Shown here in pieces: positions 11,915 through 62,529 of a stretch of 64,000 bases of DNA. A program made the translations under genes and the position numbers. A model generated the notes under the pieces. The model saw only the letters and a program-made list of their open reading frames with translations, had not been told where the DNA came from and did not search any database. Every line of letters starts with the position of its first letter. Positions within the stretch are counted from its first letter, which is position 1. The stretch lies in assembly GCF_902167145.1 (NCBI RefSeq), contig NC_050104.1:99211849-99275848 (forward strand). Reading direction: 5' to 3'. This DNA is from Zea mays. Its lineage: Eukaryota; Streptophyta; Magnoliopsida; Poales; Poaceae.

Positions 11915-11916
11915 GC

Positions 11917-18091: not shown

Positions 18092-18840
18092 CTTACTTAA
18101 CTCAGGGTGACCACTATGCCCTGCTAACGGAGCAATCGGCTTAAGTCGGCGACGACTTAAGACGGTGCAACATGCTCGCGCTTACTTAACTCAGGGTGAC
18201 CACTATGCCCTGCTAACGGAGCAATCGGCTTAAGTCGACAACGATTTAAGACGGTGCAACATGCTCACGCTTACTTAACTCAGGGTGACCACTATGCCCT
18301 ACTAACGGAGCAATCGGCTTAAGTCGGCGACGACTTAAGACGGTGCAACATGCTCGCGCTTACTTAACTCAGGGTGACCACTATGCCCTGCTAACGGAGC
18401 AATCGGCTTAAGTCGGTAACGATTTAAGACGGTGCAACATGCTCACGCTTACTTAACTCAGGGTGACCACTATGCCCTACTAACGGAGCAATCGACTTAA
18501 GTCGGCGATGACTTAAGACGGTGCAACATGCTCGCGCTTACTTAACTCAGGGTGACCACTATGCCCTGCTAACGGAGCAATCGGCTTAAGTCGGCAACGA
18601 TTTAAGACGGTGCAACATGCTCACGCTTACTTAACTCGGGGTGACCACTATGCCCTGCAAACAGGAGCAATCGGCTTAAGTCGGCAACGACTTAAGACGG
18701 TGCAACATGCTCATGCTTACTCAACTCAGGGTGATCACCATCCCTATTAACAAAAGCAATCGATTTAAGTCAGCAACAACTTAAGGCGATTTCACATGCT
18801 TACGATTACTCATATAGGGGTGACTTCTATACCCCATAAA
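18092..18840. repeat. 89-bp tandem array in the Grande 3' region
   Basis: About eight copies of an 89-bp unit start at 18092, 18181, 18270, 18359, 18448, 18537, 18626 and 18716, and a decayed ninth follows. Units begin CTTACTTAACTCAGGGTGAC. Two subtypes alternate (GGCGACGACTTAAG and the ACGATTTAAG form), so there is a 178-bp higher-order period. Each unit holds a stem of CTTAAGTCG with CGACTTAAG around a four-base loop. Confidence 0.92.
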
Positions 18841-24943: not shown

Positions 24944-24989
24944 GATCTTTGGGCTGATTATCTCAAAATCAGCCCAAAGATCGGGGGCT
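24944..24989 (+). other. Hairpin 3 plus polypurine tract of Grande
   Basis: A perfect 16-bp stem, GATCTTTGGGCTGATT with its complement, encloses a 7-base loop (24960-24966). GGGGGCT then directly precedes the 3' LTR at 24990 and is the working polypurine tract. The stem sequence differs from hairpins 1 and 2 but the fold is the same. Confidence 0.85.
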
Positions 24990-25613
24990 TGTGGGGGACA
25001 GATATCCCCCTGGTCCACTAGAAGGATAGATGACCTCACGAAAGGCCCAAGGGCCCAATAAATCGTAAGGTCACTCCTTCATGGGCCTGGGGAGGAACGA
25101 CCAGTGAAGCAGATCGACATAAGGCAGGATTGGTGTAAGCCCGGATGGCCCCACAACGTTGAGCAAGCGACCGCAACAGAAGATCCGATTTTCCGCGCTG
25201 GAGCCCCGTACGACGGAACCAAGCGAGGATAAGTCGGCAGAATCATAGGAAGATAGACTAAAACAGTTCACTATCTTTTAGGTGCACATTGTTATCATAT
25301 CCACATGTATTGCCTCACGGTCGAATATATAAGGCCTAGGGGCACCCCTTCAGATCGATTCCCACTACTCAGCCATCCACCTCAACTCTCTATGTTCTCG
25401 CTTTAGAGAGCTACCTTGTAACCCATTACACAAAGCACACTCGCCAGGACGTAGGGTGTTACGCATCTCAAAGCGGCCCGAACCTGTAAACACTGTCTAT
25501 TATTCCTCGTGCATCTGGCACGAACCATTTAGCTACAGTCGGCGACACCGTCCTACTCCTAAAACACCTTGAGGGGCAAACCCGGGTGTGCGGTCGGACC
25601 CAAAACACCGACA
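24990..25613 (+). repeat. 3' LTR of Grande-like element
   Basis: Starts TGTGGGGGACAGATATCC and ends AACACCGACA, followed by GCGGT, the duplicated target. The TATA motif is at 25326-25334. Confidence 0.92.
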
Positions 25614-25618
25614 GCGGT

Positions 25619-26969: not shown

Positions 26970-27081
26970 TCGAGCTTGGTGAGAGAGGCAGTGGGGGTGG
27001 AGGAAAAAGGGAAATCCGACTCATCGAAAACAACATGGCGAGAAATGAGGACTCTGTGGGAGGTGAGGTCAAGACACCGAC
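26970..27081. other. 112-bp filler between copia integrase and the LARD
   Basis: From GTCGAGCTTGGTG to CACCGAC the sequence does not continue the integrase. It is purine-rich (AGAGAGGCAGTGGGGGTGG) and of unknown origin. It replaces the integrase C-terminus, whose linker reappears at 57943. Confidence 0.6.
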
Positions 27082-30000
27082 TGTAACACTCCAGGTGTTT
27101 ACCGTCCGCTCGACAACGTGTATGGGTTTAAGCACGTAATATCAGTGGATAAAATAGATGCTAAATTTTAATCATCTCGCAAAAGTTCAAGTTTGGTGCC
27201 GTTTTCATTTCCATGATTTAAGCAAAAAAAGGGGGTTCATGAAGCTTTTGGATTATCGAATTTTCGTCACAGGCAAATTTTGAACTGTTCGGATCACGCG
27301 TGTAAGTGAATACGAGAATCAGAAAACTTCTGATTTTATGGAAAATTTGGAGCCCCGCGCTGTCCGGAAAGAGTAATGTGCCAGCACATTAATTGAATTG
27401 TTCTCTAGTCGAGTGTTCGAGTAGCGAACGGAATTCGTCTAAATTCAACTAAATCAAACGTCAACTAAAATATTGAATCTGATCTCGTCTGGTTTAATAC
27501 GTCTACATCTCGCTCCTGTGACGATGCTGACATCGTCTCCGGTAGAATTCCGATTGCGATGCCGCATTCGACTCGCACAGTTTAAAATTTATTTATTTCT
27601 AAAGTGTCGAGCCTAGTGCCAATTTAAAATTAATTGATTAAGACGAACTAAAATTGTCACTTAAGTATTTCACTCGGTTCGAGCAATCTCTATATAAATT
27701 CGGTAAATGCGCTACTTGGAGCAGGCTGTTTAAATAAACCGAAATCTGAACAATTGCTAGTCAATTCGGTTTCCTATTTCAAAGTATAAGAAAATAATAT
27801 GTGTAGCCGTAACGTCTTGATCTAGCCCGTTCTCATATCGTCTACAATGTAACTCTGGAACTTGATTATAATTATATCAGCATTCATAATTTCATTTTTC
27901 TAAAAGGAAATTTACCATTTTTTATTCTTCTTGAGGCCCTCGGCTTTATCCATTTCCAATGTCCTTAAAAATCTTCCGAAGCCTTATCCTAACGTCCTTC
28001 CCACAAGCCGTTCTCCTGGCTTCATCAGCTTCATCATTATCTTCATGCCACCTCCACCACTACGTGTTCCCTGCTCGTTCGCCGCTATTCAACTGGACAC
28101 CCGTCTGTATCTATATATGCACGCACTCGCCAGGGCACTCTGGCCACGTACGTCTCCTGATTCCAGCGCTCAGTCTCCTACACATGGCGCGCGCGCTCAC
28201 CCAGCTCTTCCCCTTCCAGCAGCTGAGCACGCCGTCCCTCCCTATTTTAGCTCGCCTCTGTCCTCCATGGTCCGGTCAGGGACACCCACGTCGAGCTCCA
28301 TCACACGCACGCTCAGCTCCAGCTCAGTCGAGCTCGTCCCTGCGAGCGCGTTCTCCTGCGTCCAGCCGGGCGCGCGAAGCTTCTCTGCTCACGGCGCTCC
28401 CTGTCTGCTCGGCCATGGTGAAACCCTCCCTGCCATGGACGCCGGAGTTCCTCTGCTCGTTCTCATGGCCGCCGTCGAGCTTCCGGCGCACGCCCATCTC
28501 CTCTGCTCTCCCGCGCGCGTCCTGGAACTCTCCATCGCGTCGATCTATGCTTGTTCGTGGTCGCGCGTAGTCGTCCAGCTCAGCCTCTGCTCTGTTCCTG
28601 CTACTGCGCGCGTGCTCGTCGGTGTTCTCAGCTCGCCCGACCGGAGTTTTTCCTGCGCGCACCGTTTTCCCAGCTCGGATTTCGCGAGCCACCGTTGTCC
28701 TATCCGCGTCAGCACGTGACCGTGGTCGTGTTCATCGAGTTCGCCAACGCTTTGTTAACGATTCGATTGTCGTCGCTGCTGCGTGCCTCGTTGTGTGCTC
28801 ACGTTTGACGTCGAGCTGTTGAAACCGCTCTCCCTTGCTCGTGATCTCGTTATCGTTAGAGCCCTCTCTGGATTCGTGTCCTCACCCGAGCCCGCGCTAA
28901 CCTGCTCAACCACACCTCGCGAGCTCGCTCCAGACTCGATCTCGTCGTCGTTCCGTACGTCATCAAAAATTTCAAGAGTCGAGTGAAGATAAAGCTAGCA
29001 GCGTGATATTCACCAAGTGCTCGACAAAAAGCTTGAACAAGTCGTCGATCGTTATCCTCGTCTACGCCAAGATCCGAGAAGATTGAGTGCAGAAGAAAAT
29101 AAATCAGTACGCGGTCGGAGAATTCTCGAGTGGATAAAGATAAAGCGCGATTCGACGCAACACTTACCCTATTTTCAGTGAAATGCTGAGCTAAAAGGCG
29201 TCGTCGATTTCGTGGTTTCAAGTCAGATTTAATGAGGGTAAGTTGATTCGTTATTCTAGTCAACTAGGTATATAAATAGATTAAATAAAATTGTTGGTCG
29301 TGATAATTGTTATTAATTTAGCATACGTATATTGTGATGTTTGATCTAGATGAATCGGTAATTCAAATTAATTAAGATAAACAGTTTAAAGAGTTAATTA
29401 GATTGTTTCCATAACTATTTTAAGTCGTTGGTATTTAATAATAGCGAGTCCTGGTTTTACTAGACCTCTGAAATATATTTTACTAAAATTGATAGTGTGT
29501 GTTTATAATTTATTCTTGCTTGATAATAAAATTAGATGTGATTGAACAGGAGAAATGCACGTGATATAATTAGTATATATAGTTTATTATTTTGTGATTA
29601 TTGCGCGTAGTCATATGTCGGTAACTAGTGCTTTCGTATGAAATGGTATGACACTTTGTTATTAGGTGTTTAATTCGCTATCGTGTAGCACTATTTAGAT
29701 TTGTGCTATTTCTGTTTATATGCATTCATGTGCATTAGGCAAATCATTTAGGTATATTTGTTGACTACGGGATGTGGAGAACCAAAGCCAAGTCGACCCC
29801 AAGGTGTCGTAAAACACGATCTACTTCGAACAGTGATGCTGATGGGCCAACCGGAAGATGGATAATCGGAACAAATGCGAAGACAAAAGATGGTCGTCAA
29901 GCGGACGTCGTCTAACAAACACTAACGTGGTGTTTATCCCAGGCAAGCCCCGGTGCATGCAACCCCTTCCTTGTGTTTTTAAATAATTTTTACACAATTT

Positions 30001-30110
30001 AAGTCTAGCGAAATGTGCATTAGGTTTATAGGAGTTGCTTAGAAACCCTTTGATGCATTGCCTACCTTGAAATCCATCCCTTTATAGATACTTCTAATGA
30101 AGTATCAAAA
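27082..30110 (+). repeat. LARD 5' LTR, part before the CACTA
   Basis: Starts TGTAACACTCCAGGTGTTT and matches 53577-56603. It holds a TATA-like TATATAAAT (27691) and a GC-rich stretch at 27930-29000 that gives chance frames. An AT-rich part begins after GAGGGTAAGTTG (29232), a possible splice donor in a leader. I see no gene. Confidence 0.88.
27691..27699 (+). promoter_or_regulatory. TATA-like box, LARD 5' LTR
   Basis: TATATAAAT; the 3' LTR has the same at 54187-54195. Confidence 0.45.
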
Positions 30111-30540
30111 CACTACTACAAAACATGTTATATGAGACGGTTAATTTTCAGTTCTTAAGACGCTTATGAAGTGTCCAAATTTGATGGAGTCGTAAAAGAT
30201 GTCTCACATTTAAGATGGTTATAAACCGTCTTAAAAGATATTATATAAGACAATTTTTATTTTATAACCGTCTGTAAAAGGTATTTGTTTAAGTCATTTT
30301 GTCCGATAAACTGTCTTAAATTATTTATTTGTTTAAGACACTTCTTTTAAAGAACCGCAGAGAATACAAACATTATAAGTCATAACGTATTTATCAAACT
30401 GTCTCGAATATCCTACAATAATAGACGATTACAATAGGAAAACTATCTTATTTAGGTGACTAATATTAGACGTTTTAGAAACCGTCTTATTTAGAAGACT
30501 GATATTAGACATTTTGGTGACCGTCTTATTAAGATTTAAA
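30111..30540. repeat. CACTA left terminal and subterminal repeats
   Basis: The terminal CACTACTACAAAA is followed by repeated elements around ACCGTCTTA and TTAAGACGG in both directions, the usual binding region for CACTA transposase partners. Confidence 0.8.
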
Positions 30541-30754
30541 CGAAATGACTTACACGGCAGTACATTCTTCAATTTATAATCATTTTTTCAGATATCACGT
30601 TATAATAATTTGAAAGAAAAATATACATACACATATATTGAACAACATTATAATTAATATAATATAAATAAGTACCTTTTAATATCTCATAAATAAACAT
30701 TGTCAAACAACTCATACATAAGTGTACTCTAAATCTAAACTAAAATACAACTGT

Positions 30755-31366
30755 TTGCACTAATGTTGGATCCCTCTTTACTTTGAAAACCCATTTGAGT
30801 CCTATAGCCTTGTGATCCCTTGGCAGATCAGCAATCTCCCAGGTCTGATTTTCTTGAATTGACTTCAGTTCAACCTCCATAGCTCTTTTCAAGCAGTCCT
30901 GTGAAAGAGCCTGTTCCACACATGCAGGTTCATCAGCTGCCAGCATGCACACTCCACTGTACTCAAAGTCATGCACTTGTTCAGTTGCATCAAACAAATC
31001 AGTCAATGTTCTGAACCTGTATGGTCCTGACCCTGAGCTCTCTGATTGTTGAACAGATGGAGTTCCCATCCCTTGATTTTGCATCATACTTGATATTGGA
31101 GTGTATGGAGAAGCAGATTCATTAGCTTGTCCTGTTCCACTGCTTTGGCCAACTGAATTTTCTCCTCCTATACTTTGATCTGACAGTGTTGGGTTACTAT
31201 CATCCCCAGTTGTTACCATGTTTTGGTCAGTTAGATCATAGTGAACAATAAAAGTGTCAGTCTCCTGTTGATCTATGCTGCACTTTGAACTGTCCCAGTC
31301 CCAAGGTTTCCCTTCTTCAAATACCACATCTGAAAATACATTGTAATCATAAAATACGTCAGCCAA
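30755..31366 (-). pseudogene. Copia pol fragment (integrase end to RT start) in the CACTA
   Basis: The minus frame reads DVVFEEGKPWDWD, then a Ser/Gly-rich linker, then the start of copia reverse transcriptase (MEVELKSIQENQTWEIADLP, GLKWVFKVKRDP). After KRDP the match stops. It has no LTR. Another transposon's gene piece has been picked up or inserted. Confidence 0.8.
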
Positions 31367-31798
31367 TACTTTTTGTCTAGAAATGGAACCTGTTCATTCT
31401 TTGTTTATTGCAATAAGTGATATAGGCAATAGTAGAAAAACAAACTACAATTCATAAAGGTATTCAATATTTATCTGCATCAGATGTCAGGCCCTTCACC
31501 CGGTTTTGTAGGTCACTACAAAAAATTGACAGATGAACCGAAACTATTGGAGAAAAGAAGGCAAAAAAACCCTCCCAAAAACACTTTTTGGCTGCTCCCA
31601 AAAACAGCACTTTTTGGCTCCACTCCTGATCAAGACTAAATCACTCTAGACCTTGTCAGTCCAACAAACAGAGTTTTGATCACTCTATTGTTATTTTTCT
31701 ATTAAATAAACCTTGTAAGACTATGATACAATGGAAGATACTGCTGGCCAATTATTGTGCATGCATTTTATTGCTATAGGGAGTATAGGAGAGGCTAC

Positions 31799-31913
31799 CT
31801 GGCAATCTCTCAATAACCGCTCGTTCTTGCAGCTGAACATTATTACATACAACAGAACCTTGGATGTGGCAACCATCTTCAACAACAAGATTCATCACAA
31901 CCGAGTTGACAAT
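31799..31913 (-). pseudogene. eIF2B gamma exon fragment
   Basis: The minus strand reads CTACAG, then an exon encoding VNSVVMNLVVEDG and CHIQGSVVCNNVQLQER, then CAG/GTAGCC. This is the left-handed beta-helix repeat region of translation initiation factor eIF2B subunit gamma. The expected ending DCQ is reached only after one extra A (GAG-A-GAT), so there is a frameshift near the 3' border. A single 115-bp exon with both splice sites is present. The identification is from memory of the protein family. Confidence 0.78.
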
Positions 31914-32031
31914 CTGTAGCAAGGGTGGAAATGATCTCTTTCATGACAAGGAAGTAAAGAAGCTTCAACCAGAATGGAACTTAAATTTGGCAAGGATACC
32001 TTATAAAAGCTAGAAAATATTGTTTACTTAC
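31914..32031 (-). other. 118-bp hybrid intron between the RPS4 and eIF2B gamma exons
   Basis: Its donor GTAAGT comes from RPS4 and its acceptor CTACAG from eIF2B gamma. The length is normal for a plant intron. The neighbouring exons are both in phase 0. Confidence 0.6.
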
Positions 32032-32109
32032 AAAAGCTCCGCCAAGCTTGTCGAGCATCCAATGCTTGGGCACATTGAGCCTCTTCAAGTGCTTCTTCAA
32101 TCCCCTAGC
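32032..32109 (-). pseudogene. 40S ribosomal protein S4 exon 2 fragment
   Basis: The minus strand gives AATCCAG, then 78 bp encoding [26 protein letters not shown] (26 residues), then GTAAGT. This is residues 2-27 of RPS4, one Ala to Val change aside. It starts exactly where a phase-0 intron after the start ATG would end. The exon is intact but lacks the ATG and the rest of the gene. Confidence 0.92.
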
Positions 32110-33003
32110 CTGGATTGCAAAATAATAATGATCAACAAAAGCGCAACAGATTCCAGTATGACATTCATAGGTGACTCATCCAGATTGCATCAGCTGTTAA
32201 AAGTAACAACAACTACACACTACTTGAAAACAAAAGACCCTTTTCATACATGTCTATCTCTATTACTTATATATGAGCAGTGCCATCGTCAGCACCTCCT
32301 ATATGTATGCCTAGGACGACATCAGCTGGCGAGGGGCGCGGGGACGCACGGGCGTCTTGGACGGGCTCACCCTGAAAACACACTAGAATGACTCTATTAT
32401 CCAACCGCCCAGAAGAGCTCCTTCCTCAATGCAAAGCGTAAGAAGATCAGACAGAGTTTTACCTTATTGGCAAGGATCCCAATACCACACCGCTACAGTT
32501 GAGAGCGGCAGTAGCACTTTCTGCCTGGGAAAAAAATTGAGGCCCAGTCTTAAAAAAGCTCACAGAATAATAAGGCATTTGAACGGCAGACCAAACAACT
32601 TGCAGAATAAAAAAGAAGCTACGCAAATTTGAAGGCGAAGGTATGCTTAGCTGACCATCACGAATCCCAGTTTCAGCCCATGGAGCGGGATCTGTTGCTC
32701 ATGTCTGCCTTTCTGTCCTTTTAGATAGCCAATGCCAATAGTTCATGCAAAACTATTATCAACTGTTCCATTGTACATGTATAATACGTGGAAACAAACG
32801 CAGTCAGTAGCCACCAATACCCATTCCTTATGCCAAATTTGTGACATGAGATGGAAATAGTACATCAATAACCCTTGATATACTGAAATCCAAAATTAAA
32901 GACTTTAGCTATGCTATAAAATTAAACATTGATAAAATGTTCCAAGCAAATTGTAATATATAATTAGACAGGATACAGAGATATAAATAAGCGAATGTAA
33001 GAC
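32110..33003. other. CACTA cargo, unassigned
   Basis: Mostly intron-like AT-rich sequence with a short GC-rich piece near 32320-32385. Several stretches look exonic in composition, but I recognise no protein. Confidence 0.4.
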
Positions 33004-33092
33004 CTGGTAGAGCGCATGACTAAGTTCTTGTCTTGCTGTGTGTGTAGCTACTGCTCCAAAGCAAAATTAGAAAGCATGAGAGCATCCCACTC
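33004..33092 (-). pseudogene. PRP19 exon fragment (coiled-coil region)
   Basis: The minus strand reads TTTTGCAG, an exon encoding EWDALMLSNFALEQ, a TAG in place of Gln, then LHT and, after two extra bases in a CACACA run, ARQELSHALYQ, then GTCTTA. This is the segment following the U-box in pre-mRNA-processing factor 19, a spliceosome-associated ubiquitin ligase. The stop and frameshift make it non-coding as it stands. Confidence 0.92.
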
Positions 33093-33370
33093 CTGCAAAA
33101 TTCAAGAAAAAAAGTTCGGGTAGAGCTATAGAATCATGATTTGCATCTTTGGACAGGCCACAATAATAATAATGTGTATCACAGAGATATTAAGTATCAT
33201 GATGATCAGTGCATCCATGGGTAGTAATGGCAATCAAAGTATTTCAAGTGATTCCCAAATAAGGTCAGTTGTTAGATTCACTTAGTTTATTCTTAAAATA
33301 AGGTCAGATATCAGGTTCACTTTCAAATATAAGCCCAGAAAGGCACTTGAGATGCAAGGTTATTAATATC

Positions 33371-33410
33371 CTGGAATGCTTGCAGCCTGCAAAGGCCTGG
33401 GCTTCACGAC
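33371..33410 (-). pseudogene. PRP19 exon fragment (after the U-box)
   Basis: The minus strand reads TTTGCAG, then 40 bp encoding VVKPRPLQAASIP plus one base, then GATATT where a GT donor is expected. It precedes the next PRP19 exon in the right order and strand, 278 bp away. The exon between them in the real gene, encoding GMLGMFQN, is not seen. Confidence 0.88.
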
Positions 33411-34735
33411 CTGCAAAGAATGTAGTTCTTGAGTTTTGGCAGATTGGGACAGCAGTAATAAAATACTTTAGGTGTATATGAGACTATCAAGGTAGTTAAT
33501 GAGTATACAATATATGTTGTTGTCCTAATCAAAAACACTAATCGATGTGGATGCAGAAGTATAAACAGAGTGCACAACATCAAATTCCACCATTGATTCA
33601 AAAACATATCAATTTAGTTCTTGAAAGTTTAGCATAGCAATCTAAAACAGAATGGAGTGCAAAAGATATGAGAAAGAAACAATATGTGACCTATGCCCTA
33701 CCTATCAATGACTTTAGAATATAGAAATAAGTATACGAGTATCAACTGGTGAAAGAACACTCGTATGAGAAATGTGATAGTAGATTTAGGTCTCAAAAAA
33801 TAATATTGACTCAAATATACATACACCATATGATGTAATTGGACTAACACAAACTGAAAGTGCTGCAGTTGGATGATGAAAGAAGCTAGTAGCAACTAAA
33901 TTTAATATATTATATTTTAATAGGTTGTAAGCGTTTAGTTGTCAACTAAACTTAAACAAGATCACTTCTCATATGTCAAAGTGTAAAAAAGTAATATTTT
34001 TAGATACAATAATGTATGGCTCTAAAAAAATTCTAGACGTGCCTTTTTACTTGTCACACTTATCTAAACTATGACTAGGAACCTAACAGCCCCATGGTAA
34101 TTGTGTATTTGTCATTCTAAAAATAGTAAATAGAGAGATGACCACTGTATCGATGATAAGATTGTCAAAAGTTTCTGCTACGATAAACCAATGGATGCAG
34201 GAAGAGGACCACCCAAGTCCATGTTGTAGGAGAAATCCCTACCAAATATAGGTGGCAATCACCTCACATGCTTGAAACAAATGTTAAACTTACAATCCAT
34301 GTGCTTGTTTGGGGACTCAAATCAAATTAAATCAAAGTGTAAAAGGCGAAATATTTCATACAAGGTCTGCAATTCGGATAGAGACTGGATGTCACTTGAA
34401 AGGGACCCTGACAATCCGAAACTTGACAGTCTTCTGCAAGAATAGCCACCGTGAAACAACACAGTGAGGGATGAATTGCTCATCTATAAAAAAGAGCAAA
34501 TATACCAATCATAGTAATATCTAAAATAGAGCAATACGTTAGTATTAAGATAATATTAGTATTAAACCACTAGAAGCCATCGATACAAGAATATATTAAT
34601 AAGATAAACAAGCTTCTTAGCTAGCTGACATCTGAGGTACGAACAAAAGAAAATTACACTAGAGAATTCTAAAGCCATGAATACAAAAGAAAATTACACA
34701 AGATGAGCAGATTAATAATTCTTATATGTTATCCA
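33411..34735. other. CACTA cargo, intron-like
   Basis: AT-rich sequence without a recognisable exon. It could be PRP19 intron in its right part; nothing firm. Confidence 0.4.
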
Positions 34736-34739
34736 CCAA

Positions 34740-35170
34740 CGCACAACCGCGCCTACTCAGCATCCGCGCGCCCACGCACCGCACGCTAAACCAGAGAATG
34801 CCAGAAAAAGGACAAGCAAAAAAGGTAACTGGAAGTCTGGAACAGTGGCAGATTTGGAGCAGGGAGAGGAGACAGGCACCCGACATGGCAGGCGACATTG
34901 TTGGCCGCAGTGGCCGATGGGCGTTGGAGAGCTGAAGGTGCCAGACACGTGGTCGAGTGGTCACGTGCAGCCGTGTAGGGGCGATGGAGCACTGGAGTCA
35001 CTGTGGCGTCGCTGTGGAGGTGTGGAGGTGGAGCCGTCGGCGCTCGACGAGCCGGCGAGGGGTGGACGACGGCTCTCCCTCCCGCCGAACCCTAACCCCA
35101 TCCTCAACTCCGTTCTCAGTCGCTCAACCACTTTGCCCTGGCACAAAAAATCCCTAATCTCCACCCTCCA
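34740..35170. other. GC-rich unidentified segment in the CACTA
   Basis: About 430 bp of clearly higher GC than its surroundings. On minus it includes ATGGGGTTAGGGTTCGGC, which resembles the 5' end of a plant gene. No protein can be named, and the open frames on both strands disagree. Confidence 0.45.
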
Positions 35171-35866
35171 AGCTTATCAAATAGTCCCCAAAAAATTCCC
35201 CCAAAATGAAAACTCAGTATCAATCTAATACTAAACATCAAGCAAAAAGTGATGTTTAGCCATTTTCAGGCACAATCAAATAAAAAGTACCTGAAGGAAT
35301 ATATCTGCAAAATAACATGAAGTTTTCCTGTACAATAACATGAAGTTGCAGAAAATATGAATGTGGCAGTTTATTGAAAAGAAAAACAGAATTCACAGAG
35401 GCAAAGAGCTAACGTAAATCACATCCTACACAAGTGAAAATGCTAAGTACTATTTATTCTTAGTGTTCACCCTTTACTAACATGATACAATCCAAAGTCA
35501 CTCCCGAATGCAAGAGATTGCAAGTAACTTCAGACATTCTAGGACAAGTACAATATAATGAATAAGACACTTTACACATAAAACTGAATGACTGGACCCA
35601 CTACTGTGATTAAAAAACATTTAAACTGCATTTCAGCTATTCACTTGGAATTAAAAATGTATTTGTGACTCGTGTGATTTCATCTTTATCCCAACGCAAC
35701 TTGATTGAGACAGGTTTGTTGTTGGTGTGGAGTTGATGTAGAAGCTACCCTAGATAATTCAGAATATCATATCATCCATACGAAAAAATGTCTGGATGTT
35801 CATGTTATACCAATCAGTTCTTTTGAGAAGTATAGAAAATTACAGACAGGGAACAGAGTCAAATTT

Positions 35867-35962
35867 GATATCTGGATCCTTCAAAGATGTAATGATCTAG
35901 GCCTGGTGCCTTCTAATGATATCCTGCACATCTATTACTAACAGCATCCTAGTCATGTTTTC
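35867..35962 (-). pseudogene. AP-2 alpha adaptin exon fragment b
   Basis: The minus strand reads CTTTCAG, then 96 bp encoding ENMTRMLLVIDVQDII, RRHQA, a TAG for Gln, and IITSLKDPDI. It continues exon a at the correct residue of the AP-2 complex large subunit trunk. Homology stops at 35867 without a GT donor. Confidence 0.9.
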
Positions 35963-36084
35963 CTGAAAGATGGATCAATTACTGTCTCAATATGGTAGAT
36001 TTTACACTTGCACAACTTGATGCGGAAGCAAGACTGCCAGCAAAAGGCATTAATTAAGTAAATATTAATAAGAAATGCAATTAC

Positions 36085-36186
36085 CAGACCGAGGTACCGA
36101 ATGTTTGGCTCCCGGACTGCAATAAACTTCCCAAGAAGAGCCACACACTGTGACATCATCTCCTTCTCAGCATCCAGATGCATGAC
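36085..36186 (-). pseudogene. AP-2 alpha adaptin exon fragment a
   Basis: The minus strand reads CATATAG, then 102 bp encoding VMHLDAEKEMMSQC, VALLGKFIAV, REPNIRYLGL, then GTAATT. This is the armadillo-like trunk of clathrin adaptor AP-2 subunit alpha. It is a complete exon in phase 0, with a 122-bp intron to exon b. Confidence 0.93.
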
Positions 36187-36229
36187 CTATATGGAGTATT
36201 ATACATGCAAACAGACTTAATTAATTGAT

Positions 36230-36810
36230 CTATGTGGCGGCCACAGCCGCGGTTGCGACAAAGCGCCCGGAAGGGGGCCGCGAGAGCGCAATCGCCGCAG
36301 AGCGGGGAGGCATGACCGCGTGAGGGCTAGGGCTCAAGCTCGGGATACCGGATTGTGCGGCGGCGAGTGTGGATCGAGGGGGATGCGCGGATGGCGGGGT
36401 TTGGCGGCGGTTCCAGGGACAGCGCGAGCGGGTTCGGCGGTGGTTTCTGGGAACGGCGTGCGCGACGGATTATGCCGTGCCCAGTGCCGGCTTGTGCGGC
36501 GGCGGGTGGCCGGGCTCTAGGACGGGGCGTCAGCGCTCGGGGACGGGGATGGGGATGGCGCGGCCGAGAGGTCGAGGCGCGGCGGATTTCTGGGCTCGGG
36601 GGCGGGACGTCGGCACTCGGGGTGGGGACGTGCTGCAGGGATGGCGCGGTCATGGTCGGGCTCGGGGCTCGTCGAGGCTCAGGGATGGGGCGTTGGTGCT
36701 TGCGGACGGGGCGTCGGCGCTCGGGGACGGGGATGGCGATGGCGGGGAGGGCTGAGGGATCGGCGGGGATGGCGCGTGGGTCGGCGGGGATGGAGGGGGT
36801 GTTGTTGTAA
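36230..36810. other. GC-rich, low-complexity segment in the CACTA
   Basis: Strongly GC-rich, with repeated GGGGATGG, GGCTCGGGG and GGGGCGTCGGCGCTC blocks. CACTA elements often have a GC-rich transcription start region near one end, and its place upstream of all the minus-strand cargo suggests a promoter or leader. The frames on both strands are Pro/Arg-rich or Gly/Arg-rich and not credible as proteins. Confidence 0.5.
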
Positions 36811-37249
36811 AACGGTGACGCATGCGTTTGAGATACTCGGTGGGTTGATTGGAAGAAGTATAGGGGGTTTTTTTGTAAAAATATGACGCATGACGATCGT
36901 TGAAACTGATGCTTTAAGTATAGTAGAGATAGGAACGGGTGGTATGACGTGAGACTTAACCATCTGGTTTAGATCCCATTTCGTTTGAGCTAAATATACT
37001 GATTAAATGTCAAAAGCATAGTCTGGAGCCTGCCATGCCATGAATCATGAAATGACAATAAAACATAAACAAAAGCATAGCCTCGGAGTTTGGGGGCGCC
37101 GCGCTGGGGGCACTGAAGACGACGGATCTTGTCTCTCAGCCTCGGCGATGGGCGTCGGACGGAGGAAATGGCATTAACCATCGTTATATTAATAAAATGT
37201 ATTGTATATATGTGCAATACGGATATAAAGAGAAATATCTGTGGGATTA

Positions 37250-37847
37250 GAGCAACTCCAATAGTTCTCTAAACAACTCTCTAAATCTTAAATTTAAGAA
37301 GTGAACAGAAAAATGCTTCTCCAATGGTTCTCTAAATAAACTTGCTAAATTTACTTAGTTGCTATTCAACTCTATTTACTCTCCACATTTAGCAACTCGG
37401 TAGGAACTCCCTAAATGCAGTTGACGTCAATTTCTTCACACTAGCGTGATTATTTTTTCCTTTCTCACACGGTGAGATAGCCAGGTATAGCACGCTCTTT
37501 TTCATTTTCTAGCATAATGAGGTAGCTAGGTCAAACACGTATGACGCAAGTTTCTCCTTCATCGTCGAACCCAACTTCCTCGTAGGTTGCGCTACCGGAA
37601 CACTACTCATCCATAGTTCATATCGACCGGCCTTTTTTCTTCCGTCCTGACATCCTCAGCTCTCAACCTTATTATCAGGCATATCTCATAGGGGCAGGGT
37701 CGCTAAAGCTAGATTCAAAATCGAACTACTTCCTAAATATGGGCAACTATTGGAGACTAAGTTATTTTTTTACCTCCAATAGCTATTTAGCAACTTGCTA
37801 AACATGATTTTAGCAAGCTATTTTTTGGAGAACTACTGGAGTTGCTC
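37250..37847. mobile_element. MITE with TTA duplication inside the CACTA
   Basis: 598 bp with inverted ends GAGCAACTCCAATAGTTCTC and GAGCAACTCCAGTAGTTCTC, flanked by TTA on both sides (37247-37249, 37848-37850). The 3-bp TTA target points to PIF/Harbinger. It has no coding capacity. Confidence 0.85.
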
Positions 37848-38089
37848 TTAACCACCGCTTATCAGGTTGCTTATACCATACAAAGAGATGATATTATAAC
37901 TATAAATATACTCTTAATGAGAAAATAAAAAATAATCATATTTGAAACGTATAATTTTATTTGAAGAAGTTTCTTATTTAAGCAAGATTTTTTACCTATA
38001 TGATATATAAAAACCGTACGAACATACAGTCAGCTAACTAGTTCATTTTAAATTCCAAAAAATATTTAGTTCAATCTAATCAGAATTTA

Positions 38090-38503
38090 CTATTGACTAC
38101 GTTTTTTTCACAATATGTCTTATCAGAAATATTATACGAGACAGTTTTATGTTCACAAGTTAAGACAATTTTGTATAGTCTAGATGACTCTAATAATATC
38201 TTTATTTGAGATGGTTTCATATACATAAGTGTCTAATATACTAACCAAAATAAAAGACACTTCTTGTAAACTTAATGCCTCAAAAGGTATATTTATTTGA
38301 GACGGTTTTTAAAATCAAACTGTATTAAATCAATATAAGACATTTCCAACCATATATCTGTCTCAAAAACCTTCTTCATTAAAGACGGATGTCCAACAAA
38401 CCGTCTTACCTTACTCAGCACCATATGATAAAAGACGTTTCTATAAAATGCACTGATATTTGTCTTAAGATGTATGTCTTAAATAAGCATATTTCTAGTA
38501 GTG
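38090..38503. repeat. CACTA right terminal and subterminal repeats
   Basis: GAGACGGTTT and AACCGTCTTA-type motifs recur in both orientations, followed by the end TTTCTAGTAGTG. Confidence 0.8.
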
Positions 38504-39835
38504 AAATATGATTTACAAAAATGCTTAGCCCTGCTTAGATCTTGTGGATAGAGGTTGTCTTTCGCATTAAGGCCTAGCTCAGGGGTTATCCTGAGGAAGG
38601 ATGACTTCTACCTGCAAGAATATTTTCCTTGGGAGCGTGGTGGGATCTTACTGCAAAGTTCCCTATAATGCTCTTTTCATCCTAAGGAACACAAACAATC
38701 CTAAGGATGGAAGTACTTAAATCGGGACTTGGGCTAGGAACAGGTGATGTTCTACCCAGGTTGATTAAGGATTATACTGAATGTAGGCCTGCTGATTGAG
38801 GACCTTTTAACTGGTCACAAGCCTCATCATGGGTAAGCTTTGCCTCGTGCAGACTAATACCAGAATAAGACAACATGCAATGCGAGTGGAGAATGGCGAG
38901 AGTAGCATGTACCCTCCGTGGCAAGAGGCTGGACGGTGGTGTATCTGTGCTCTCGGTTGGCATGAACCTGATCTGGTCTTAAGAACCCCGGTGGCGAGTT
39001 GACATATGCAAGGGTTAAGTGCTACATATGTCGTGTGATTGGAGATCCCCAACTGGGTATTAATCGATTCAGGATCGCCGTTACTTCTTGGATATGAAGA
39101 CTTGGTCACTGACTTGCAATCTAAGTCATGGATGGAATCTTAATGAGCAAAAATCATGTTGGATTGATTAATGTGATGGTGAAATTAGACTAGATGCAAA
39201 CAAAGTCTATTAATACTTAATCTAGCATTAAAATGTTCAAAGTAAGGACTCACTTTAGTAAGCTATTTCTGCAAAAGTATCTAAGTTGATTCTTGCTAAA
39301 GCCTTTTCCTTGATTCCTATTTAACCAGCATATCCTTGAGAGTCTTTTCTTTAGTCGGGTAAGTCTTGCTAAGTACTTGCGTACTTAGGGTTTTACCCAT
39401 TGTTGCTGCAGGTCATGAGTCATTTTGATTGTAATTGGTGTTAAGCGCCGGTGGGCACGGCCTTCTTATAAGTCTAAGTAACTCTTCTATACTTCTTATT
39501 GAGGATGGTCACTTGAGCTAGCATATATTTCAAACTTATAAACAATTTATAATAGTTCAAAGTTATTTTTTGAATCACTTTTGTAATCACTCCGATCATG
39601 TACAATGTAAAGCCGATGTAACTTGTAAAATTTGGTAATAAGATTTCCGCTGCAAATTGTTGGTGTGTGATTTGTATTACTTAATCTTGCAGTTTTGGTT
39701 GTAAGTGGTTTATCCGAGGTCCTTGGGGCACTCGGACAGATCCTGTTAAGTTGTCTGGTGCACATGCATAGCCATCTGAGGACTTTGAGACAAGGACAGG
39801 TGCATGTGGGCCCAATAACTTGGGAGGTTCTGCCA
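38504..39835 (+). repeat. LARD 5' LTR, part after the CACTA
   Basis: Begins with the AAA duplication, then matches the 3' LTR from about 56604 to its end. It ends TGGGAGGTTCTGCCA just before the primer site. The last bases differ from the 3' LTR end (TATCACA). Confidence 0.85.
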
Positions 39836-41954: not shown

Positions 41955-44900
41955 TGTAACACCCGGTTTTAAGGAACAAAGCCGGGTGCATCTCATACAT
42001 GCGCCAAGAAGACAACATATATAATAACAGAGTGTATAGAGATAAATGTCATAAAACATCAGAGTATTTATTACATAGCGGAAGACTTATTACAAAATAA
42101 AAGTAATAAACATGAAACGAACTAAGGATCGTTGGCGCCAATGTCGACTGAGAAACGCCACCTAGATCAGATCGAACTCCTCAGCGTTAGGCAGCTCCTC
42201 CTGAACCACCTGCTCTTCTCCTGTGGGGGGGGTGTGAGACAGCAAGAGTGAGCTCACATACGTTCATAGCTCAACAAGTCGTGGGGAATAATGTGGCATG
42301 AACTCACCAAAGGTGGGAGTTCATGTAGTGTAAGGCTAATCAATGGAATAAAGGCTGAGGCTGAGCATTGCTTTTATAAGTTGGTCAAAATTTTATTAGC
42401 AATTACTAAGTGTAAGTAAATACCAAACCTTAATAATAATAAAGAACAATAATAGTAAAATAATCCCAAATGCGATGCAAATGTCAAATTGAATTTAAGT
42501 TCCATAATTAATCATGTGAGGGTCCGAGCCGCTCTTGACCGTGAGCACGGCTAGTATACTAGTTTTACACTCTGCAGAGGTTGCGCATCTTTACCCACAA
42601 GTCGTGTATCCCATGTCGCCTGGGTTTGCAAGGCCCTTAGACACTACCGAGGTGAATGGCTAGGGATCCACTACGAGGCCTTTACAAAGTTCCACTAGCT
42701 TCCGAAAACCCGCTACAGTTTATAGGAAGATCCAGTACAGGGTTCCTGGCTGACAGCCATCGCAGCAAAATCAACCAGGGACCTCCCCGCACTGACCTCT
42801 CCCCTACTGCCCTTGCCCCTTTCGGGTAAGGTAGTCTTCCACTAGCTTTCCTAGTTAGTCAGCCAAGGGCGTCCCATTAAACCCTTGTGGTAGCACTGTT
42901 TTCCCGGGTGGTTCTCCATGTTCCCATTAACATAATGATCTTAACATGAACAAGGAAGAATAAAACAGATAACAATAAATAGTATAACAATGAGTGATGA
43001 ATATCTCTATACCCAAATCCACATAAAGCAATAGCATGTACTACCCAAAACTTTAGTAGTAAAACCAGTGGTGAAGCAAGGTATAGAGATAGTCAAATCT
43101 AGGGTATCCTATTGGGTCCCAGCAAAAATTATCCTATGCAGATCATTATGAATAATAAGAACATGAATAGGTAAAAGAAGTGATCAAGGGCACAACTTGC
43201 CTTCAATGAGCTCCTGCTCAGCTACTTCTACTTGTTGAACCTCAGTTTCCACAGTGGCTTGCTCGTCTACTCGCATCAACACAATACATACATGGTATAG
43301 CCAAAATCAACATCACACCAAACAGATGAATAAAATATACAGTAAAAATCTATTCATTAAAATGAGATCATAGGAACTGGAATCACTGAATTTGGAGTTA
43401 TAGAATTCAAGTTATGAATTTCCTAAGATTTAAGGTGATTATAATAGGATTAAATGTTAAATTAATGTTCTTACTGTTTTTATGCCAAAACAGAGACACT
43501 AAATGGTAGAGAATAATTTTACAAAATTGTAGAAATTGGAATGGTTCAATTTGAAGTTAAAATGAATTTTCTATGCATTTTACAAGTTTCTAGATTTGTT
43601 TTTGTATTAAAAATGAATTTCTAATATCATTTCTCTATTTTAATCTTCTCTGGACTGGGCCTCATTTATCGAAAAGCGCAGGGGCTAGCTCGTAAGTTTT
43701 CCCGAGACTCAGAAGAACCCCAAGGTGGACGGCGGGTTCTATATCCTACTTCCCGAGGGGCTCTTATGCAAAAGTGCCTGGCCGAAGGGGGTATCGGCCA
43801 TCGTGAGCCGCCCGATCGCACACCAACGACGGTGATTAGAACGTATCTGGCCCGAAGCGGTACGCAATTCTGGCCGTCGAAATACGAACCAGCGGAGGAG
43901 ATTTAATTACTCGCGATCAGATCGTAGCCATCAAACGAACCTTCTACGGTTTAGATCTATCGCGCATAAGGGTATGCCACTTATTGAATCAGGGCCGCAC
44001 CTTCTCGGATCCACGGTCCCGCAATCATCTGCCCCAACGCTGGCGTTGGCAGCAAGCATGGCAGCCTAACTGCGGCGGCGCCATGGGCGCCAGCGGTGAT
44101 GGCTCACCGGAGACACGCGACCCGGCATCAGTACGCCCAAACGATCACTCAAGTGGTTCAAAACGCAGTAGGGAACAAGGCGAATCAAACTAGGGAGGGC
44201 ACACCGTGAATCACGCCGCACAACTTACTGCCCACGGTGCGCGGCGGCATCCCAAATTCTGGTGACGAATCCCGCGCAGGTACTATGACGCAAACAGTGC
44301 AAGGGCTCAGGCAGAGGAAAGAGGAGACGATGGGATAACCTAAGGAGCGGTAGATTACCGGAGGCAAAGCAACAACGAGGCCGACCATGGAGCGAAGCAA
44401 CACTGGTAGAAGACCTCAACTCCAGGAAGGAATTCAGGGCGACCCGATCACCCGCAGCCTCCAATTTGGCTTCAACGACTCCAGGCAGTGCCCCCCAACG
44501 CCACAACGCAGCTGAATCGACAGCGAATCGAGGAAGAGCTTGTGTCGATGTCTCCCTCCCTCACAGCGGCGTTTATCCCTCGGTTTGTGGAGTCACAGGG
44601 GTCTTCACCATTGGGCGCAAGCAGGTCAGGGAGGGGGAGATGTCCTCCATTTTAGGGCGCGGCAAGATGACGGCTCGCCCAGCTGGCGTCGAGTGGATGC
44701 CGCGGCGGTGGTTGCAACCACCCGCCCGAGAAAATCTCCACAGCGCCCGCGGAAATTTCGCTCAGATCCGCGCGCAAGTGAGGCGAGGTCCGCCAAACTC
44801 GGCCAGGTTCGGTACGAGCGCGGGGAAGTGGGGGAGTTCGCTCCTATGCTGACGCACTAGCCCCACCAGGCGGGGAGACGGTCATGGAGGGCAAGAGCCC

Positions 44901-45569
44901 AGGCGCGCGCGAGGTCTCGGCGGAATTGATAGTCACGCGGCGTAGTGAACGCGAGTTCTGTTATGGCGAAGGGGAAGGAACTGACATCCTGGGCCCGCCT
45001 GCAAGTCGCCACTGCATGTGCATCTGGAATGTGGCCCCCACCATCGGCACACGGTCTAATCTGTTCGTTTGGGCTGTGTGTATTTGCCCGATGGGCCGAT
45101 CACAGAAGACATTCAGCCCAGAGCGCAGGTAGACCCCCTTCTCCTTTCTTTTATTTTCTATCCTCTTATTCATGAATATTTTTGAATTCAAATTTGGATT
45201 TGAATCTGCTTTTGAGCTCTACCCCTGAGTCAGGTGTCACATTAAAGCACTAGTATAGCAATAATATTTTATTTATTTATTTTACATTATTATTTTTTTT
45301 ATCACATAAAATTTTCTTTCCTTCCCTTTCTAGGATTTCTTTAAGATTCTAAATTCTTTTTTTTTGGACTTTAATATTTTTCTTGCCACATCATTTTTAT
45401 ATTGTCACAAAGTGCACACAAAATAAGATCCAGCATGATGCACAGGTTATTTATGTGTTCTTTGTTTGATTTATCCACTTTTACTAGTGTTGATCACATG
45501 TAATGAATAGTAGAGGCCACAACTATTGAGATTATCTCTATTCCCTTTATTACACTTTTGAGTATTACA
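41955..45569 (-). repeat. 3' LTR of the Tekay-like element
   Basis: On plus it starts TGTAACACCCGGTTTTAAGG and ends GAGTATTACA. Identical in length and nearly in sequence to 48870-52484. Frames inside it (for example 43984-45132) repeat exactly in the other LTR and are not genes. Confidence 0.95.
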
Positions 45570-45589
45570 AATCCTACCCCCCTTAAAAA
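45570..45589 (-). other. Polypurine tract of the Tekay-like element
   Basis: The minus strand reads TTTTTAAGGGGGGTAGGATT directly before the 3' LTR, preceded by GAGGACGAGATT. Confidence 0.75.
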
Positions 45590-45604
45590 TAATCTCGTCC
45601 TCGA

Positions 45605-48310
45605 GATTTAAGAAGATCTAGGGAAAATGTGGGGAAAATCTATGCGGAGCTCTTCTTCTCTTTCCCAAGTTGCTTCATCTTCACCGTGGTGACTCCATTG
45701 CACTTTGCACATCTTTATAACCTTGTAACTTGAGCCAAAGTGTCAAGAATCTTGATCGGATGCTCCGTGTAAGTCAATTCTCCCTGAACACTAAGCTCTT
45801 CCATTGGTAACTATTCCTCGGGGACACGGAGGTATTTCTTAAGTTGAGACACGTGGAGTACATTATGCACATCAGATAGATTATCAGGTAGCTCGAGTTG
45901 ATAGGCCATCTCTCCAACTTGCCTAAAAAAACTCAGAATAGTCCAATGAAGCGAGGGGACAATTTGCCCTTGACTTTAAATCTCCTCATTCCACGAAGTG
46001 GTGACACCTTGAGGTCCACATGATCTCCTTCTTCAAATTCCAGTGGTCTCCTTCTATTATCAGCATAGCTCTTTTGCCTGGTTTGAGCTACCCTCAAATT
46101 CTCTCGAATTATACGAACTTGTTCTTCTGCCTCTTGAATAAGTTCAGGTCCAAAGAACTGTCTTCCTCTAGTCTGATCCCAATATAGAGGAGTCCTGCAC
46201 TTCCTTCCATATGGAGTCTCAAACGGTAACATCTTCAGACTGGCCTGGTAATTATTATCATATGAGAACTCAGCATAAGGTAGACTCTTGTCCCAACTAC
46301 TACCATGCTGAAGGGCACAAGCTCTCAACATATCTTCCAGTACTTGGTTAGTCCTTTCGGTCAGTCCATCAGTCTGAGGTAGGCCAAACTAAAATTCAAC
46401 TTCGCATCCGTATTCTCATGAAAACTTTTCCAAAATTCTGGGGGTAAACTGTGATCCTCTTATCCAAAACGATCTTCTTTGGTACTCCATGTAAACACAC
46501 AATCCGAGTCATGGGCTTCCTTTAAAATAGTCTCACGAAGGCTTTCAATCTCGGGGACACATATCTTGTCCTTGAACCATATGGCACCTTGCTCATCTTC
46601 CGTAAATTCCTGAACTCGACCTTCAGTAATCAGATCCTTAATCTCTTGTATCTTAGCATCACCAATTTGTCCTTTGCGGATCTCTTGCTCCAAAGTAGGT
46701 TCCACATCAATAGTAACTCCTTCAGTATGAGCAACTATCCTCAGGTTAAGTCTCCTGAAATCCTCAACAATCTCATCGGGTAGCTGGGCAACAATAGCTG
46801 AATGAACATGCTCCTTTCGACTCAAGGCATCTGCAACCAAATTTGCCTTGCCCGGGTGATAGTGAATCTCCAAATCATAATCCTTAATAAGCTCCAACCA
46901 ACGGCGTTGCCTAAGGTTGAGATCCTTCTGAGTGAATATATACTTCAAACTCTTATGATCCGTGTATACTTGGCACTTAGTTCCCATAATATAATGTCTC
47001 TAAATCTTAAGCGCATGCACAACGGCTGCCAATTCCAAGTCATGCGTGGGATAGTTCAACTCGTGTTTCCGCAGCTGACGAGATGCATAGGCGATCACAT
47101 GACCTTCTTGCATGAGCACACATCCAAGTCCTTGGCCACATGCATCACAGTAAATGTCAAATCCCTTCTGCAGATCTAGCATAATCAATACTGGTGGTAA
47201 CATTAACCTCTTCTTTAGTTGATCAAAGCTATCTTGGCACTTCTCGTCCCACTTGAACTCTCTTCCCTTCTCCAGAAGCGAGGTCATAGGCTTGGCAATC
47301 TTAGCGAACCCTTCAATAAACCTCCAATAATATCCTGCGAGTCCCAAGAAACTCCAAATCTCAGTAACTGTAGTGGGTATGCTCCACACCACTATCTCCT
47401 TGACTTTAGCAGGATCCGCTGATATCCCTCCATTAGAAATGATATGTACAAGGAATGACACCTCGTCAATCCAGAACTCGCATTTGCTATACTTGGCGTA
47501 GAGTTGATTATCTCTTAGCTTCTGTAGCACCAATCTCAAGTGTTCTTCATGATCACTTTCACTCTTAGAATAGATAAGAATATCTTCGATAAATACTACG
47601 ACTAATTTGTCCAAATACTCCATAAACATCTTATTCATCAAATTCATGAAATAAGCTGGTGCATTGGTTAATCCAAATGACATAACAGTAAACTCGTATA
47701 ATCCATATCGGGTTGAGAAAGCCGTCTTGGGAATATCTGATGGCCTAATCTTCACTTGGTGATAACCCGATCGGAGCTCAATCTTCGAGAATATCCTAGC
47801 ATCTCTCATCCGATCAAATAAATCCTCAATGCGGGGTAATGGGTACTTGTTCTTCATGGTAACATCATTAAGGAACCTATAATCCACGTACATCCCTTGC
47901 GATCCTTCTTTCTTCTGTACAAACAAAATCGGTGCTCTCCAAGGTGAAGACTTGGACGAATGTACCCAGCCTCTTGCAACTCCGTTAAGTGCTTTTTGAG
48001 TTCTTTTAACTCTTCTACAGACATCCTATATGGTCGTTTAAAAATAAGAGCAATTCCAGGTAAGAGATCTATGACAAACTCAACTTCTGTATCTGGTGGC
48101 ATCCCTAATAACTCCTCTGGAAAGACATCTAGAAAATCTCTAACCACATGGATGTTGACACCAACAAAATTCCCATCTAGTAAGAATGTCGCTGGTCTGG
48201 TGGAGGTAGTTACTGCAATTCCAACTTCAAATCTTTCTCCTTTAGAACTAGTGAGTTCTATGGTTCCTTTAGCACTGTGTATAAACCGCCTTTGCCTTTC
48301 TTAACCATGA
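45605..48310 (-). pseudogene. Pol remnant of the Tekay-like element
   Basis: In order on minus: the end of protease (DVILGMSWLRK, near 48290); reverse transcriptase ([53 protein letters not shown]; 48147-47000); RNase H and the integrase start ([40 protein letters not shown]; 46987-46460); integrase end (46331-45933); and a chromodomain-like tail (CKVQWSHHGEDEATWERE; near 45700-45610). Both Asp of the first and second catalytic motifs that are normally Asp-Leu and Asp-Asp have a Glu (IELRS, FIED). A frameshift lies near 47910, a TAG for Trp near 46998, and the integrase core is deleted or frameshifted around 46400. Confidence 0.85.
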
Positions 48311-48869
48311 CATACCAAGGATCACATCTATAGTGCTCTCTTCTAACACTATAGGGGTAGCTCATCTGGGTTAGAAACACAGGGTACGAAAGAAAGAATT
48401 GTAGACAAGGCGAGTAATTACGAGGAATGTTACTACGGGGGATTTATTAGCTAAGTAGATTAGTGTGTTATCCACTAAAGCTAATACATTACCTTATGGC
48501 GGTATATGCTAAGATGCCCAACTATAATGTTTCAATCAATCAAAGAAGCAAATCAGGCATTGATCATCAGAACAATCAACCAACATTTTTAATAGAGAAA
48601 ATAATTTTTAATTTTGTCTTAGGCTTCCTATCTCTAAAAAAATTCATAAATGTAGGATTCCAAGGTGTGAAATCCATCTTGTCTTGAAGTAGAAAAGGTA
48701 AGAATCATCAGAGTAGAACAGTAGAAGGTGAGACAGGATCAAGATAAGTATAGAGAGAATCAGAGTAAGGTAAGTATAGAATGAATCAGAATAAGTTAAG
48801 TAGGTAAGGGTTTTGTCAATTTCTATCTAGATTTCGTCCTACAGTCAACATTTCCTCTGATACCACTTC
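48311..48869 (-). other. 5' leader of the Tekay-like element with primer site
   Basis: The minus strand shows TGGTATCAGAGG (48854-48865), a Met-type primer site, five bases from the LTR. A leader with ATGGATTTCACACCTTGG follows, which may be the residual gag start, and then sequence without coding content. The gag gene expected here is absent. Confidence 0.65.
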
Positions 48870-51800: not shown

Positions 51801-52484
51801 GGAGGGCAAGAGCCCAGGCGCGCGCGAGGTCTCGGCGGAATTGATAGTCACGCGGCGTAGTGAACGCGAGTTCTGTTATGGCGAAGGGGAAGGAACTGAC
51901 ATCCTGGGCCCGCCTGCAAGTCGCCACTGCATGTGCATCTGGAATGTGGCCCCCACCATCGGCACACGGTCTAATCTGTTCGTTTGGGCTGTGTGTATTT
52001 GCCCGATGGGCCGATCACAGAAGACATTCAGCCCAGAGCGCAGGTAGACCCCCTTCTCCTTTCTTTTATTTTCTATCCTCTTATTCATGAATATTTTTGA
52101 ATTCAAATTTGGATTTGAATCTGCTTTTGAGCTCTACCCCTGAGTCAGGTGTCACATTAAAGCACTAGTATAGCAATAATATTTTATTTATTTATTTTAC
52201 ATTATTATTTTTTTTATCACATAAAATTTTCTTTCCTTCCCTTTCTAGGATTTCTTTAAGATTCTAAATTCTTTTTTTTTGGACTTTAATATTTTTCTTG
52301 CCACATCATTTTTATATTGTCACAAAGTGCACACAAAATAAGATCCAGCATGATGCACAGGTTATTTATGTGTTCTTTGTTTGATTTATCCACTTTTACT
52401 AGTGTTGATCACATGTAATGAATAGTAGAGGCCACAACTATTGAGATTATCTCTATTCCCTTTATTACACTTTTGAGTATTACA
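48870..52484 (-). repeat. 5' LTR of the Tekay-like element
   Basis: See 41955-45569; the offset is exactly 6915 bases throughout, so there are no indels. Confidence 0.95.
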
Positions 52485-62300: not shown

Positions 62301-62529
62301 TATTAAATAATAGTTTTTATCGTGTTGTAATCTTAGGCTTTAAAATTTGTTTGCGATTTGTAATAGCAATGTAGCCGTGTCCTGTCCTTCCTCAGATCCT
62401 ACTGAAGTATCTCCGGGTGCACGGCCTAGGGGTGACGATGAGATTAAAAAGATGGCTGAAGCTATTATGGATGAAGTTGTCGATCGACTGTTGAACGAAG
62501 CTGCAGAAGTGGTACTTAGGGAAGACTAA
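59303..62529 (+). pseudogene. Antisense spliced gene (aORF) of zeon copy 3, nearly complete
   Basis: Start MSEDKKTAAETK at 59303. Exons 59303-61417, 61508-62299 and 62396-62529, with GTGCGA and GTATTA donors and GCAG or CTCAG acceptors; all borders are shared with copy 1. The domain order is an acidic N-terminus, the putative gypsy-type transposon domain (AGLRFPLSSFVVEVLKIFE, RSQGLKPDAKSFCNIHE; FIGTRDLVQEHIAFRVWPL), a Lys/Glu/Pro linker with nuclear-localisation-like KKKR and PEPKRKKIKV, and a coiled coil (EVIELRNEGLEKDKILYSLI). The C-terminus is EVVLRED. Damage is limited to a TAG at 59876-59878 (Gln in copy 2) and a one-base loss near 62097. Its function is unknown. Confidence 0.8.

Follow-up and report, generated by a model that had tools for sequence, protein, structure and literature searches.

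Maize Pack-CACTA elements possess the most distinct donor loci of all Pack-TYPE elements, and exon shuffling by them has been described (Gisby and Catoni 2022, PMC8903248). We analysed a 64,000-nucleotide stretch of Zea mays DNA, hereafter the window (NC_050104.1, positions 99,211,849 to 99,275,848 of the forward strand), that holds a non-autonomous CACTA element of this kind. Like the published maize elements, it possesses CACTA ends, shows no transposase and carries coding pieces of several loci; no structural difference was found in the accessible part of that report (PMC8903248). Soybean Tgm-Express1, at 5.7 kb, is likewise a CACTA with exon and intron pieces, derived from five host genes, which serve as cassette exons in chimeric transcripts; its transcription is driven by the promoter of an active gene, within one of whose introns it resides, whereas the element described here lies in a long terminal repeat (LTR) (Zabala and Vodkin 2007, PMC1947982). 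Gene-collecting Helitrons of maize similarly hold several gene pieces per element, with stepwise uptake (PMC3288121, PMC2267711). Helitrons are delimited by rolling-circle ends (TC...CTAG) at an A/T insertion site, whereas our element has CACTA outer ends flanked by a 3-bp duplication, and no convincing 3' end of the Helitron type was found in it. Pack-MULEs share captured gene pieces with our element, and carry them between inverted ends of the MULE (Mutator-like element) type with 9-bp duplications instead of CACTA ends and 3 bp.

Taken together, we favour, with a probability of roughly 0.63, a Pack-CACTA that acquired its cargo between its own CACTA ends and then moved as a unit. Observed directly are the CACTA ends, the 3-bp duplication, the exact absence of the element from a sister LTR, and a cargo, entirely on the minus strand, in which genomic pieces from four host genes are joined by a scrap of a retroelement. 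This CACTA is a good, well-bounded example of an already known element type; what is new here is an exact match between the predicted splicing of exons in the window and the database entry A0A804UJL4.

An empty site in the sister LTR

BLAST comparison of the window with itself paired 27081-30110 with 53576-56604 (95.4%) and 38504-39831 with 56602-57931 (96.8%). One LTR is therefore made up of 27081-30110 and 38504-39831, with an insertion-free partner at 53576-57931, and the 3 bases by which the matched segments overlap in that partner are the AAA target-site duplication. The empty site fixes the insertion at exactly 30111-38503 with all fragments inside it, in agreement with a sequence-only reading of this DNA, which had placed the fragments within the ends of an 8.4-kb CACTA. 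The sister LTRs have diverged by K=0.041 over 4355 sites. Substitutions accumulate at 1.3e-8 per site per year, a rate that would make the LTR retrotransposon about 1.6 million years old; since a single LTR holds the CACTA, the CACTA insertion is later. The retrotransposon in question spans 27082-57937, is flanked by CCGAC, carries the CACTA in its first LTR and a younger element in its interior, and has a primer-binding-like TGGTATCGGAGC after the first LTR.

The CACTA begins with CACTACTAC at 30111 (+) and ends with CACTACTAG at 38503 (-), AAA flanking each; these terminal inverted repeats are identical over their first 8 bases and agree at 23 of the first 40. By itself the end motif is at chance level in the window (5 matches with at most 2 mismatches against 2.38 expected; at least 5 in 12 of 100 shuffles). 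GACGGTT, counted without a shuffle control, occurs seven times in the window, and six of these occurrences fall within the CACTA, all close to its ends. The terminal inverted repeats, the 3-bp duplication and the subterminal repeats are those of the CACTA superfamily. Domain scans of 41 of the 119 stop-to-stop open reading frames (ORFs) of at least 35 residues in the CACTA, among them all 34 of at least 60 residues, gave no transposase domain; the other 78 have at most 59 residues. Host coding DNA between the ends and the lack of an own transposase define a Pack-CACTA (Pack-TYPE) element, and the CACTA agrees with both within this sample of ORFs. No Rfam family reached its gathering score in 30000-38600, and the viral contig collection yielded no relatives by CACTA end, eS4 piece, AP-2 exon or Helitron-like core. 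An internal CACTACAAAAAAT at 31514-31526 (+) is possibly a remnant CACTA end of the sort that hybrid-capture models predict; such matches are expected by chance.

Table 1. Features of the CACTA element and its cargo, in window coordinates.
Feature	Position	Strand	Remarks
Left target-site duplication	30108..30110		AAA
Non-autonomous CACTA element	30111..38503		8393 bp; CACTA motif at either end, flanked by AAA; precisely absent from sister LTR
Left subterminal repeats	30135..30530		GACGGTT / AAGACG motifs; 4 GACGGTT at 30136-30480
Copia-type reverse transcriptase piece (RVT_2 start)	30767..30850	-	PF07727 1.9e-5, under curated cut-off; inside ORF 30740-31393
eIF2B gamma exon piece	31799..31913	-	flanked by acceptor CAG and donor GT; lacks one codon; frame apparently shifted by 1 base close to 3' end
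Ribosomal protein eS4 exon	32032..32109	-	ARGLKK...GGAF; stop-free, shift-free; splice sites AG and GT
Second Helitron-5'-like site	32257..32269	+	preceded by A; fits first 13 positions of published rule
Exon-like piece, donor unassigned	32463..32524	-	AG and GT flanks; last 30 bases resemble ten A0A804R2X8 residues (weak, E 0.067)
PRP19 exon	33004..33092	-	splice sites AG and GT; TAG and 2-base insertion
Third exon of gene model A0A804UJL4	34961..35172	-	GC-rich, non-AP-2
Second exon of gene model A0A804UJL4	35291..35327	-	
AP-2 alpha exon b	35865..35962	-	TAG inside; GT absent at expected end
Captured AP-2 alpha intron	35963..36084	-	122 bp; first part similar to intron read of P0018
AP-2 alpha exon a	36085..36186	-	ATG at 36183 = A0A804UJL4 start; AG and GT flanks
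Helitron-5'-like 9-base core TCTCTACTA	36921..36929	-	preceded by A; at chance level
Miniature inverted-repeat transposable element (MITE)	37250..37847		inverted ends GAGCAACTCC; TTA duplication; nested in CACTA
Right subterminal repeats	38300..38482		GACGGTT at 38301 and 38399; TAAGAC cluster up to 38476
Right target-site duplication	38504..38506		AAA

Donor genes and condition of the captured pieces

In transcription order, the minus-strand cargo consists of AP-2 alpha exon a, its intron and exon b, followed by PRP19, ribosomal protein eS4, eIF2B gamma and a copia piece. The four gene donors named by the sequence-only reading, and their common strand, are borne out by Pfam, PDB and protein-database matches. 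Joined, the two AP-2 alpha exons match Adaptin_N at 7e-7 (under the curated cut-off) and, among PDB chains, AP-2 alpha at 2e-4 ahead of AP-1 gamma at 1.4e-3; the piece is 94% identical (2.4e-31) to a database entry named AP-2 complex subunit alpha. All 114 candidates of the AP-2 protein search were proteins matching at E up to 0.01, 20 of which were inspected. One database read (P0110) is stop-free in exon b and differs by a residue at the point where the exon b of the window should end, and these protein letters would fit a normal splice site in that relative.

The PRP19 piece reaches 6.3e-11 in Pfam and 1.8e-7 in PDB if a single stop and a single change of frame are bridged; in its unmodified frame, Pfam gives only 0.035 and PDB no match. 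For eS4, the Pfam family RS4NT matches at 1.5e-11 and the best PDB chain at 7.6e-12. The eIF2B gamma piece matches PDB at 4.7e-4 and database exon reads at 85% identity; the loss of a codon and the apparent shift of frame close to its end show against the reads P0119, P0120 and P0126, the last named eIF-2B gamma by its source. NCBIfam returned nothing for it beyond weak glucose-1-phosphate adenylyltransferase matches. The protein search with this piece returned 30 of 30 candidates, headed by the window's own reading and then by one (P0118) that is 96% identical, flanking intron included, and may be another copy or allele. The copia-type piece is the fifth minus-strand passenger of the CACTA; its similarity extends to about 31335, judged by eye alone beyond 30850.

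The expectation that each piece keeps its reading frame proved correct for AP-2 exon a and eS4, both free of stops and shifts. It failed for AP-2 exon b (TAG), PRP19 (TAG and 2 extra bases) and eIF2B gamma (loss of a codon and an apparent frame shift), leaving fragments of three of the four donor genes broken by stops or frameshifts; because the pieces are mostly broken, a working donor protein is unlikely to come from them. Splice sites were likewise claimed for most pieces, and AG/GT pairs do adjoin AP-2 exon a, PRP19, eS4 and eIF2B gamma, while exon b is without GT at its expected end. The AP-2 alpha intron has the 122-bp length that had been read, and its presence, together with the retained intron flanks, upholds uptake from genomic DNA. 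A second PRP19 piece, proposed 278 bp onward, was not confirmed: protein-level alignment with a plant PRP19 segment placed nothing at that position, and 44 of 300 shuffles equalled the best score that it reached in other places.

Two features that had been singled out as notable are not supported as such. Four pieces fall on one strand by chance with a probability of 1/8, or five including copia with 1/16; one-strandedness is weak evidence, and none for selection. Multi-locus capture by maize Pack-CACTA elements is published as common (PMC8903248).

It is scarcely credible that matching by chance or faulty assembly explains the exon-like pieces, a view already contradicted. The individual pieces are short (78-115 bases), as such an account would have it; against it stand four independent family matches, the splice sites that adjoin the exons and the agreement, at all 115 residues, with an independent maize entry.

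Routes by which the pieces entered the element

The CACTA itself likely captured the gene pieces. They would have been acquired between the CACTA ends in earlier rounds by hybrid-element or gap-repair capture, and the finished CACTA would have transposed as a single unit, using transposase supplied elsewhere; its jump into the LTR would fall within about the last 1.6 million years. A 2026 review treats the Pack-CACTA capture model and the way in which captured pieces act on their donor genes through small interfering RNAs (PMC13317346).

Several points weigh against this reading. No second copy of the CACTA was read at the DNA level, so that capture between the ends is not separated from the alternative that an element already loaded with fragments later inserted into an empty CACTA. 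One Helitron-5'-like core is oriented towards the fragments, and another site fits 13 positions of the published rule. Within a 22-Mb maize region, moreover, the carriers of gene pieces were 187 Helitrons, 20 LTR retrotransposons, 9 MULEs and 5 CACTAs (PMC2773423).

These points bear on an account in which a gene-collecting Helitron entered a plain CACTA; we regard this as unlikely, while giving it serious weight. The Helitron would have its 5' end at 36929 (-) and would reach leftwards beyond 31799 to a 3' end that has decayed or escaped recognition. All four gene pieces lie downstream of the TCTCTACTA core at 36929 (-) and in the same sense. We searched the CACTA with published Helitron end rules (PMC2267711), taking 300 Markov resamples of it as control; a Helitron 3' end comprises a hairpin plus CTRR followed by T. 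On the minus strand a medium 3' pattern is present at 32321-32354 and also at 30465-30484, a position to the left of the pieces, and a 13-mer like the 32257 (+) site appears in just 8% of the resampled elements. Most captured pieces in maize are carried by Helitrons (PMC2773423), which acquire pieces stepwise and often have damaged internal ends (PMC3288121); absence of a hairpin is weak evidence, given that 16 of 35 maize Helitrons are without a strong 3' hairpin (PMC2575219).

Against a Helitron, neither the full 18-base 5' rule nor the strict 3' end (CG-palindrome plus CTAGT) is matched inside the CACTA. The A-preceded 9-base core arises in 28% of the resamples and the medium 3' pattern in 95%; the latter occurs in the CACTA at 30465 (-), 32321 (-) and 36887 (+), and its 30465 match falls in the CACTA subterminal repeats. 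The site at 32257 points in the opposite direction and leaves eIF2B gamma and eS4 outside, and the cores at 36929 and 32257 are unlike one another (500 of 2000 shuffles were equally good). A hairpin scan, run without a control, gave no convincing end.

It is improbable that several unrelated small insertions carried the pieces in singly, with the CACTA capturing nothing. Foreign DNA does accumulate in the CACTA, as the presence of the MITE and the copia scrap demonstrates. The gene pieces nevertheless retain exon-intron structure, a repeat scan of 20000-45000 detected no inverted pair around any single gene piece, and a sibling gene model, A0A804R2X8, has several of the pieces together.

Chimeric gene models and the surrounding window

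A search with the AP-2 piece led to the UniRef entry A0A804UJL4 (P0021), a Zea mays protein of 115 residues. Splicing the window at 36183-36085, 35327-35291 and 35172-34961 reproduces this entry exactly, at 115 of 115 residues, with predicted introns of 757 and 118 bp, so that AP-2 alpha exon a is followed by two exons of non-AP-2 sequence. A predicted chimeric gene model of this CACTA, or of an identical copy, is present in databases, and the chimeric product that the sequence-only reading had envisaged finds its counterpart at the level of this gene model. No literature on A0A804UJL4 was found. Under Pack-CACTA capture, minus-strand transcription, which may start in the GC-rich block around 36.2-36.8 kb, would yield a transcript in which AP-2 alpha exon a is spliced to the two non-AP-2 exons, giving A0A804UJL4.

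GC-rich blocks lie inside the CACTA at 34719-35172 and 36240-36800, with up to 0.74 GC (guanine plus cytosine) in 250-base steps; the former contains the third exon of A0A804UJL4 and the latter could be a promoter site.

A region search with the 115-residue model returned three proteins among 17 candidates: the model itself, A0A804R2X8 (Zea mays, 146 residues) and a 153-residue read. A0A804R2X8 holds AP-2 exon a with changes, exon b without its stop, the second model exon in a different frame, ten residues like the end of 32463-32524, and the third, GC-rich exon, entered at an internal acceptor. Because it has these exons in changed form, a related copy exists. Its order is that of the window except for the ten residues, whose counterpart in the window, the piece at 32463, is placed downstream of the third model exon; on this weak similarity (ten residues, E 0.067), the sibling may be rearranged relative to the window. 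It is tempting, if doubtful, to regard the captured array as a small family of young spliced maize chimeric genes at two or more loci, made of an AP-2 alpha exon and GC-rich sequence of other origin, whose sibling free of the exon b stop may make an AP-2 alpha-interfering peptide or small RNAs.

The locus offers a clean, datable case of multi-gene capture, with an empty site from the sister LTR and a splice model from a maize database entry, and suggests a route by which such elements enter gene catalogues as 'uncharacterized proteins'. The general picture of CACTA behaviour is unchanged.

Among minor passengers, the MITE is presumably Tourist-like. Neither of two exon-like pieces matched a family above its cut-off: the best for the one at about 32270-32371 was CdrL_M (0.12), and for the ORF holding the one at 32463-32524 it was UL2 (0.085). 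Two further Pfam matches under cut-off, Ski_Sno_DHD (0.0018) for ORF 34230-34445 (+) and SLX1_C (0.067) for 33304-33483 (-), were regarded as chance.

The younger element inside the older retrotransposon is a very young gypsy-type LTR retrotransposon at 41955-52484, with 3.6-kb LTRs differing at 2 of 3619 aligned sites, a 5-bp duplication (TCTTG) and reverse transcriptase and RNase H domains on the minus strand. Elsewhere, about 8 arrayed copies of an 89-bp unit, with 91% matches, occupy 18092-18810, and a direct repeat pair at 11288-11916 and 24989-25615, 98% identical over 629 bp, perhaps represents the LTRs of another element. The window ends, 14-3461 and 60473-64000, are about 77-80% identical to each other and are probably two relatives of one old element.

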